Of a stretch of 64,000 bases of DNA, positions 15,039 to 16,847 are shown piece by piece. The notes under the pieces were generated by a model. That model did no database searches. It had not been told where the DNA came from and was given only the letters and a program-made list of their open reading frames with translations. The stretch's first letter is position 1. Each line of letters begins with the position of its first letter. This DNA comes from Dehalogenimonas sp. 4OHTPN (GTDB lineage Bacteria; Chloroflexota; Dehalococcoidia; Dehalococcoidales; Dehalococcoidaceae), in assembly GCF_040448695.1 (NCBI RefSeq), contig NZ_CP159307.1:558001-622000 (forward strand), in the 5' to 3' direction. The position numbers and the translations under genes were made by a program.

Positions 15039-15100
15039 CGCCAACGGCACCCTGGGTGATGGTGATTAAAGGCACAACGAGGGGTTCTCCGCCTTCCGTG

Positions 15101-15129
15101 TTGCAGGGTTTTGTAACATTGCCTATAAT
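15101..15129 (+). promoter_or_regulatory. Promoter in the IS left end driving the passenger ORF
   Basis: TTGCAG (15101-15106), a 17-bp spacer and TATAAT (15124-15129). The -35 lies inside the terminal inverted repeat; the ATG at 15137 follows the -10 by 7 nt, predicting a leaderless mRNA. Confidence 0.7.
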
Positions 15130-15136
15130 CCGGCCT

Positions 15137-15379
15137 ATGGAGTTTTTCCGATTTAACCGGCCTCGCCTTTCATATGCCGTTCTCATCCCAGCTTGGTTTC
15201 TTTGGGTTTGGTTTGATATGAATGTCATTGGAGCACTACTTCCCGAAATATCCTTCGATGCTTACGTTCAAACTATTGGTTTGCAGTTTCTCAACCTCCT
15301 GTTACTCATCGGTGTCTTTATGGGAATATATGGTCTTGTTCGGTGGGCGGATAATAAATGGTGGCATTTCAGCAAGTAA
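15137..15379 (+). CDS. IS passenger: small membrane protein, 80 residues
   Basis: MEFFRFNRPRLSYAVLIPAW has two hydrophobic segments (about 12-34 and 46-68) and an aromatic C-terminus (NKWWHFSK). No family recognised. It lies inside the insertion sequence, on the strand opposite the transposase, and its promoter -35 is supplied by the element's terminal repeat. Transposase-only IS6 elements do not carry such a gene, so it is either passenger cargo or a captured host fragment. Confidence 0.6.
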   Translation: MEFFRFNRPRLSYAVLIPAWFLWVWFDMNVIGALLPEISFDAYVQTIGLQFLNLLLLIGVFMGIYGLVRWADNKWWHFSK

Positions 15380-15499
15380 AACAAGGCACAATCCAACTGC
15401 TGTGGTGATTTGCAGCCAATTCAATAGCCAGCCTTGAGTGCCATAAGCAGACACGAAAAACAACCCAAAGAAGGTTGATACAATCCTCACAGCTTTCAT
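15302..15499 (-). CDS. IS passenger: second small membrane ORF (tentative)
   Basis: 65 residues starting MKAVRIVSTFFGLFFVSAYG, with two hydrophobic segments (about 5-22 and 28-48) and a polar end. It overlaps the transposase stop by 4 bp (co-directional) and the plus-strand passenger ORF by 78 bp (tail to tail). The signal-like N-terminus and translational coupling favour a real gene, but the overlap with another ORF is a warning. No family recognised. Confidence 0.4.
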   Translation of the reverse strand: MKAVRIVSTFFGLFFVSAYGTQGWLLNWLQITTAVGLCLVLLAEMPPFIIRPPNKTIYSHKDTDE

Positions 15500-16494
15500 C
15501 GCAACCCCTTCGGCATCCGGTTTACCATTCCGATTGCCTGTTTGATATGGGTTGGAATGCGCCCGCGCAATTCGGGTGGCGGTTTTTCAAGCCAAGTGAC
15601 TGTTTCTACTTTGACTGGTGTATTTCGCACTACCCCGTGCCAGTTATGGCTTGGCATTTGAGTACCCGCGCGGTCTGCCGGTGTCTTTCCGTGTAATGAC
15701 TCGTGCGGGCGCATGAAGTTGTAGAAGATTAGCCAGCCCGCCGTGAACAACTTGGCTGACTCGTATCCCTTCAACCCGCGCATCACCTTCGTCCGTGCCT
15801 TCAGCGTCCCGTGGAAACGTTCAAGGATGTTGTTGTTCGGGGTTTGGGTTATCCCCTTGTACTTGATATGGCGGGTTGAAGTACCGAATACGTCCCCGAT
15901 GGCTTGGGGATAGCTGTTGAGACTATCGGTAATGACTACCTTTGGTTTCTTGCCCGCCTTATTGCCTGCGCGGTTCAAGACCATCCGCGCATCCCCAAGA
16001 TACCGTTTGTCCGCAATATGGGACGCCAGCAGGAAACGGGTCTTTACGTCGATGATGTCATAGAACCAAACGTTTTTCCCGCCAATCTTTAAGACCGTTT
16101 CATCGCACAGCCAAACATCGCCAACTGCCGGTTTGATGTCCTTCGTCCTGTCGATGGCTTCACGGGTGTACTTGGTAATCCATCGGTAAACCGTCCCATC
16201 CGAAGGCTCATAACCATGTATCTGTTTCATCTGCCGACAGATAGCAGTAAGGCTCAACCCTTCGTAGAACATCGACACCGCCGACGCTACTTGATCGGGC
16301 GGGACGCGCATTCCAGGTTGTGCGTCTGACTCGATGAAGGTATGGCAACAGTCATTACAAAGCCAACGTTGTTTTTGAGCCTTGCTATGTCCATACCTTC
16401 GGGTACGCCTAGAGCCACAATGCTTACATTCGCAGGGTATCAATTCATTTAGAGTCATAGCCAACACCTTCTCGAACCGTTCGATTTGTCCCAT
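15496..16494 (-). CDS. IS6-like DDE transposase with zinc ribbon
   Basis: Catalyses transposition of the surrounding element. The 332 residues contain an N-terminal zinc ribbon (Cys23, Cys26, Cys46, Cys49), a helix-turn-helix region (about 66-110, TAICRQMKQIHGYEPSDGTV) and a catalytic core with Asp131 (WLCDETVLKIGG), Asp190 (VVITDSLNSY) and Glu225 (NNNILERFHGTLKART). The second Asp to Glu interval is about 34 residues, as in IS6. The frame is intact. The start could be the second Met (16458), which has AAGGTG upstream; the first ATG sits directly after a terminator hairpin. Confidence 0.93.
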   Translation of the reverse strand: MGQIERFEKVLAMTLNELIPCECKHCGSRRTRRYGHSKAQKQRWLCNDCCHTFIESDAQPGMRVPPDQVASAVSMFYEGLSLTAICRQMKQIHGYEPSDGTVYRWITKYTREAIDRTKDIKPAVGDVWLCDETVLKIGGKNVWFYDIIDVKTRFLLASHIADKRYLGDARMVLNRAGNKAGKKPKVVITDSLNSYPQAIGDVFGTSTRHIKYKGITQTPNNNILERFHGTLKARTKVMRGLKGYESAKLFTAGWLIFYNFMRPHESLHGKTPADRAGTQMPSHNWHGVVRNTPVKVETVTWLEKPPPELRGRIPTHIKQAIGMVNRMPKGLR

Positions 16495-16523
16495 GAAAAA
16501 ACCCTCCAGCCCTTACTGGAGGG
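16495..16523 (-). terminator. Terminator hairpin just before the transposase start
   Basis: On the minus strand, CCCTCCAG-TAAGGG-CTGGAGGG then TTTTTT, ending one base before the transposase ATG. It would stop transcripts entering from outside the element, a known way for insertion sequences to avoid activation by host transcription. Confidence 0.85.
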
Positions 16524-16640
16524 TAGTCTAAAGATTTTTCCGAAAACCCTGCAACACCATTGCAGGAGAACCCAACGAGGGCATTCTTGATAATAAAGGT
16601 TGTTTTAAGGTAGTCTATCGGGAAGGAGACTGCAAAATTT

Positions 16641-16847
16641 ATGTTAGAAAACATACTGAGTTTTTTCTTCGGCGGGTTTTTCGGTTTTGTGAGCCTGCTG
16701 CTAAGTGCTGTGCTTTACTTTTTGCCGACCATTATCGCCCTTGCCGGGCACCGCCGTAATACACTTTCCATCTTTCTGCTCAACTTGCTGCTGGGCTGGA
16801 CTTTTATCGGTTGGGTAGTAGCTCTGGTATGGTCAGTCAAAAAGTAG
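16641..16847 (+). CDS. Superinfection-immunity-like small membrane protein
   Basis: 68 residues with two membrane segments (about 8-34 and 44-63). The core YFLPTIIALAGHRRN, then LLLGWTFIGWVVALVW, matches the family that includes the phage T4 Imm protein, which blocks DNA entry of a second phage; cellular members have unknown roles. It lies just outside the insertion sequence, with an AAGGAG about 11 nt before the ATG, and is followed by a terminator. Confidence 0.75.
   Translation: MLENILSFFFGGFFGFVSLLLSAVLYFLPTIIALAGHRRNTLSIFLLNLLLGWTFIGWVVALVWSVKK

Follow-up and report, generated by a model that had tools for sequence, protein, structure and literature searches.

The described elements closest to the one reported here belong to the IS6 family of insertion sequences or have been grouped with it. 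In the strict definition of Harmer and Hall 2019, IS6/IS26 ends have GG first and a G at position seven, and the same source proposes splitting the long zinc-domain elements off from the family (PMC6807381). The strict members IS26 and IS257 share with our element the DDE core, the 8-bp duplication and ends starting with GG, but they are described as 789-880 bp long with a transposase of 213-254 aa that has no zinc ribbon (PMC6807381, PMC7986276). Clade h / VII (ISCpe7, ISCbo1, ISNth1) likewise has a zinc-finger transposase, of 340-353 aa, and an 8-bp duplication where recorded. Unlike our element, its members are found in Clostridia and measure 1226-1349 bp, which leaves little room beyond the transposase, and the passages on this clade mention no passenger (PMC6807381, PMC7986276). 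In clade i / VIII (ISTet2, ISHahy6, ISHco2; 1713-1761 bp) the transposase also has a zinc finger, together with an extra N-terminal part with a signal peptide that is comparable to a fusion in one relative described below; this clade differs from our element in its length and in carrying the extra part inside the transposase (PMC6807381). ISDsp3 from Dehalococcoides sp. BAV1 is 1456 bp long, with a 319-aa transposase, an 8-bp duplication and one hypothetical passenger gene (PMC6807381, PMC7986276), and it is the single IS6-family member for which the review text names a passenger gene (PMC7986276). Compared by description only, it resembles our element in its long terminal repeats, 8-bp duplication, passenger and related host group, and differs in that it is said to have no intact zinc finger (PMC6807381), which our transposase has. 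Tn3-family transposons likewise hold exchangeable accessory genes in one position with the transposition module, but they form an unrelated transposon family and the cargo described for them is of toxin-antitoxin type, against mostly membrane proteins here (PMC7157771). Searches of the open-licence literature found ISDsp3 named in two papers only and no report of cargo exchange or membrane-protein association in long IS6-like elements; a recent comparison of Dehalogenimonas genomes refers to IS21 elements and a genomic island and not to long IS6-like elements (PMC13390414).

The element described here lies in a 64,000-nucleotide stretch of the Dehalogenimonas sp. 4OHTPN genome (contig NZ_CP159307.1), referred to below as the window, where it adjoins a bacterial cell-division gene cluster. 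We consider it probable that it is an intact, single-copy, cargo-carrying insertion sequence (“tIS”) from a Dehalococcoidia lineage of long IS6-like elements. Its features, in window coordinates and with the evidence for each in brackets, are:

15075-15082, no strand: left copy of the target-site duplication, CAACGAGG (sequence; single CAACGATG at the empty site in genome G007)
15083-16572, minus strand: complete insertion element, 1490 bp (boundaries and empty site)
15083-15112, plus strand: terminal inverted repeat on the cargo side, in inward orientation (24/30 bases shared with its counterpart)
15101-15129, plus strand: putative promoter, with TTGCAG in the repeat, 17 nt and TATAAT, leaderless-like (sequence)
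15137-15379, plus strand: 80-aa ORF, probable small membrane protein with a predicted two-helix hairpin (hydrophobicity, codon-usage z 2.56, pLDDT 81.7)
15302-15499, minus strand: 65-aa hydrophobic ORF, its ATG overlapping the transposase stop as ATGA (hydrophobicity, codon-usage z 2.06)
15496-16494, minus strand: transposase, 332 aa (NF033587, NF050000, invariant columns, DDE fold)
16501-16524, minus strand: intrinsic-terminator hairpin, the 3' arm holding GGAGG before the transposase ATG (folding z -2.7)
16543-16572, minus strand: terminal inverted repeat on the transposase side, in inward orientation (sequence)
16573-16580, no strand: right copy of the target-site duplication, CAACGAGG (sequence)

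The exact 8-bp duplication and the matching ends claimed in a first-pass annotation of this DNA are both borne out: CAACGAGG stands on either side of the element, and the two termini (GGTTCTCC) agree at 8/8 of the first and at 24/30 of the first thirty bases. The annotation had also predicted that a relative should have an empty site with a single copy of the duplicated sequence. Such a site is seen in the closest same-genus genome (G007, locus L034), in which the flanks are contiguous, 94% identical to those of the window and separated by one CAACGATG, which differs by one base from the window duplication. The insertion had been called fresh; it is clean and absent from G007, but because the G007 flanks are only 94% identical the word can be taken in a relative sense only. 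Insertion would have proceeded through a replicative cointegrate of the IS6 type and a subsequent recombination step. It has one match only in its own 1.75-Mb genome and is in this sense single copy; a search of that genome with the end motif located the ends of the window element and of a second, divergent one, and no others. A second transposase in the same genome, 41% identical, belongs to a 1789-bp element (G000:C1:986587-988375, locus L045) with the duplication GGATACCG and small membrane ORFs of its own. The GC content is 49.6% for the window element, 44.6% for its cargo part and 58.1% for the window. About 60 bp from the element lies a 68-aa gene of the PF14373 superinfection immunity family (16641-16847, E 5e-20), which is found in the same place in G007 and is therefore resident and not cargo.

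The transposase, which had been described as intact, is encoded by an uninterrupted frame. It scores 154.9 bits against the IS6 model NF033587 (cut-off 125) and has a DDE triad of D131, D190 and E225 (DD34E), invariant in six aligned sequences and followed by K232; together with the 8-bp duplication, these are features of the broad IS6 family in NCBIfam/ISfinder usage. Foldseek places the predicted structure with DDE transposases, among them that of ISCth4, and with the integrases of retroviruses (E about 3e-8). The strict IS6/IS26 group, however, has a short transposase with no extra N-terminal domain, against 332 aa here with an N-terminal zinc ribbon (C23/C26/C46/C49; NF050000, IS1/IS1595-type zinc domain), and the end GGTTCTC has GG first but C instead of G at position seven. 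The earlier label of an IS6-like element thus holds for a complete element that passes NF033587, and does not extend to membership of the simple IS6/IS26 group, from which length, zinc domain and the seventh end base set it apart. The window element is a long zinc-ribbon IS6-like element of the ISDsp3-type group, a placement made by described anatomy, that is, 1490 bp, a 332-aa transposase, the 8-bp duplication and two small ORFs.

Directly before the transposase ATG, at 16524-16501, stands a terminator-like hairpin of 10 pairs followed by T residues, in agreement with the protective terminator proposed at first pass. It would stop read-through transcripts entering from outside the element, and the transposase transcript itself may start from a weak promoter at the element's own end, inside the first arm of the hairpin, and so escape the terminator. 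Similar devices that block read-through are found in IS10 and IS200. Among the 45 bounded elements of the lineage (see below), a fold z below -2 is found at 22 of the left ends versus 4 of the right ends.

At the other end of the element, the first-pass annotation had placed two small membrane ORFs in about 400 bp, in contrast to simple IS6 elements, which are without such ORFs. This is confirmed by the left 413 bp (15083-15495), the passenger region, with its two small hydrophobic ORFs. The 80-aa ORF reads inward from the terminal repeat, and its two-helix model was obtained from the single sequence. The further claim that the repeat provides its -35 is upheld in part: TTGCAG does lie in the repeat, 17 nt from a perfect TATAAT that the ATG follows after 7 nt, but only 3/6 of the -35 positions match, and a consensus promoter scan did not list this pair. 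From here, the 80-aa cargo gene would be transcribed from the end opposite the transposase promoter.

A search of 393 genomes of the class found the 80-aa ORF in one genome, namely its own, and the 65-aa ORF in four, the other three being weak matches (E about 0.001-0.01) inside long unrelated frames. Neither ORF has a match in Pfam or NCBIfam, and the 80-aa model matches none of the viral structures compared at E <= 0.001. Since homologues are missing, the coding status of the two ORFs rests on moderate statistics, and since they overlap by 78 nt on opposite strands, one may be the shadow of the other. A shuffle test covering 21 elements and 29 regions gave, for the window passenger region, p=0.147 for the longest ORF, p=0.030 for hydrophobicity and p=0.007 for both jointly; the codon-usage z is 4.09 for the transposase, next to the 2.56 and 2.06 of the two small ORFs. 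If the 413 bp were non-coding or decayed, the small ORFs would be products of chance and the region would matter only as spacing or as antisense RNA. The longest-ORF test taken alone would allow this, and so would the missing homologues and the opposite-strand overlap, but the joint test and the codon usage of both ORFs argue for coding sequence. The lineage moreover has real ORFs in the same places, and the arrangement of a -35 in the terminal repeat, a start codon 6-11 nt after the -10 and a downstream inward ORF is present in 8/45 bounded elements against 0.09 in shuffles, a count that does not include the window element, whose end-borne promoter is weaker at the -35. We therefore regard a non-coding region as improbable. 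The inward-reading small proteins of the window element, L022 and L045 were also compared with each other, and the case for homology among them was not convincing.

The annotation had further named a passenger standing alone as a chromosomal gene as a finding that would speak against its reading, and none was found in the 393 class genomes. This bears as well on the origin of the region, which could in principle be neighbouring chromosomal DNA trapped between two copies of an ordinary IS6 element to give a small composite. Members of the IS6 family are described as forming composite-like structures (PMC7986276), but the window element has one transposase and two ends only, there is no second copy of it in the genome and no further match to the end motif nearby, and the search of the class did not find the passenger ORFs elsewhere. 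As G007 has none of the 1490 bp at its empty site, we rejected a composite origin, which we hold to be very improbable.

The collection of related transposases drew on 101 near genomes, 393 class genomes, 301 phylum genomes and a named-genome scan with an alignment. At E <= 1e-50, 8/301 genomes of the phylum sample matched, each belonging to the same genus or class as the window, and the nearest matches in the named-genome scan are mostly labelled Dehalococcoidia, Dehalococcoidales, Dehalococcoides or Chloroflexi. A scan of genome contigs and viral contigs with the single transposase sequence gave no confirmed relative, whereas the alignment query did find relatives; plasmids gave only distant IS6, with at most 31% identity among the matches listed. 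The 108 distinct transposase hits include 45 elements bounded by inverted repeats and an 8-bp duplication. The boundary caller was run with a cut-off of 39 (the window element scores 42), which was reached by 0/299 decoys made of the left flank of one locus and the right flank of another, and by 0/250 in a wide search. The other 63 hits are unbounded, many of them truncated or decayed, and are uninformative either way; L018 has plausible ends that score below the cut-off and was left out of the 45, and for L069 the narrower call was used, the 2875-bp boundary from the wide search being regarded as spurious. The bounded elements are 1282-3738 bp long, with an exact 8-bp duplication in 44/45 and GG at both ends in 40/45. 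At two loci (L101:144-3730 and L117:752-3647), two different elements of the family abut exactly, with one common 8-bp duplication between them (GGATTGGC; CTTCTTGC); one pair is in opposite orientation and the other in the same orientation. This arrangement suggests that the flank of a resident element is a preferred target.

The larger non-transposase stretch is at least 291 nt long in all 45 bounded elements, so that no copy lacking the passenger region, the other observation that would have told against the first-pass reading, is found among them. In the full shuffle test (45 elements, 65 regions), an ORF of at least 100 aa is present in 46 of the 65 regions against 2.9 expected, and a membrane ORF is predicted in 38 of the 45 elements against 4.7 expected. 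An upstream same-strand ORF of at least 90 aa is found in 31 elements (32 before a 120-aa ORF in L140 was dropped as a frame-shifted piece of its own transposase), a downstream same-strand ORF in 22 and a downstream opposite-strand ORF in 17. Each of the 45 has at least one class of extra ORF, which makes passenger carriage the rule in this lineage. Most of the cargo has no family match; exceptions are a GIY-YIG/DUF7508 protein in L064 and a DUF2283 protein in L090. Of eight cargos tested, six have no defence-like match, and the matches of the other two are weak: L072 to PycTM (E 2e-5), which is the membrane component of an anti-phage system, and L146 to gop (E 0.0028). The DUF2283 protein of L090 is downstream cargo and lies beside a 76-aa ORF with no Pfam or NCBIfam match, possibly as a toxin-antitoxin-like pair; we take this ORF to resemble DUF4258-type toxins. 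The downstream cargo of L053 matches LAPAL (NF053583), a putative phage structural family, with E 1.4e-28.

Comparison of the elements with each other reveals that the cargo turns over on a conserved chassis. In L131 and L155, from one named genome, the transposases have 94% protein and 91% DNA identity, with an upstream cargo that is only 24% identical; the first 52 nt and the last 24 nt of the two elements are identical, and the agreement ends shortly before the start codon of the cargo. Each of the two cargos has a weak match to that of L006, and they may therefore be remotely homologous and not unrelated proteins. The pairs L070/L084, L005/L014 and L112/L108 (transposases 82-84% identical in amino acids) also have different upstream cargo, a 71-residue stretch at 32% in L005/L014 being the exception, and in L046/L121 (transposases 84%) the upstream cargo is present in one and absent in the other. 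Conversely, related cargo is found on distant transposases: L112 and L053 share it with transposases 44% identical, L053 and L120 have downstream cargo of 298 and 316 aa that is 49% identical on transposases 48% identical, and the downstream cargo of L012 is 39% identical to the upstream cargo of L020. There is an exception in L108 and L046, whose upstream cargo is still related (50%) on transposases 78% identical. Mapped on the tree of the transposases, the upstream-ORF label takes 10 changes versus 12.8 after shuffling, as counted with L101 and its second element scored without their upstream ORF and L140 scored with one. Cargos 24% alike on transposases 94% alike, and homologous cargo on distant transposases, indicate that ends and transposase are conserved and cargo is exchangeable; as the relatives always have an extra region but with swapped content, the region counts as exchangeable cargo and not as a fixed component. 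The ends and the transposase are thus the chassis; on one or both sides of the transposase the element has a filled slot whose genes, mostly for small membrane proteins, are replaced over time.

The upstream ORF is absent in 14 elements and the downstream in 12, and both are absent in 0/45 (Fisher p=0.0085, with relatedness ignored). In 26/31 cases the upstream ORF stops at most 30 nt from an in-frame transposase ATG, an ATG that near being not rare by chance. In L077 (G336), a 1940-bp element, the transposase frame is 512 aa long; it opens with an N-terminal membrane segment, fused in frame to the transposase and preceding the zinc ribbon. On account of the never-empty slots, the abutting upstream ORFs and this fusion, we have kept as the main rival a reading in which the small membrane proteins are partners of the transposase and not cargo, tethering the transposition complex to the membrane or regulating it, with many unrelated proteins able to serve. 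The signal peptide and extra N-terminal domain described for clade VIII transposases (PMC6807381) are also in its favour. Against it, the cargo changes far faster than the transposase, the non-membrane proteins of L064 and L090 are among it, and 7/45 elements have no membrane ORF in the same test; we find this reading unlikely.

Returning to the exchangeable cargo that we prefer, it may be retained for a benefit to the element or to the host, and would most likely consist of membrane proteins that serve exclusion, defence or addiction, which is a guess from their class. The never-empty slots and the fusion of transposase and membrane segment nonetheless suggest a tie to transposition closer than that of plain cargo. 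Only tentatively do we put forward the stronger proposal that the lineage is a chassis with obligately occupied, exchangeable membrane-protein slots, whose protein is functionally tied to transposition, whether abutting upstream, overlapping downstream or fused.

Passenger carriage, so far named for one IS6-family member, is found to be general and modular in this Dehalococcoidia lineage, and a load of extra, swappable genes, most of them for membrane proteins, is out of the ordinary for elements of this type. At 1.3-3.7 kb, elements that exchange their cargo at the boundary of a gene would be very small vehicles for shuttling genes, in a host class that includes organohalide-respiring bacteria. 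Should the membrane protein prove to be tied to transposition, this would amount to membrane-associated transposition. The elements would also lend themselves well to the question of why a transposase keeps company with membrane proteins.
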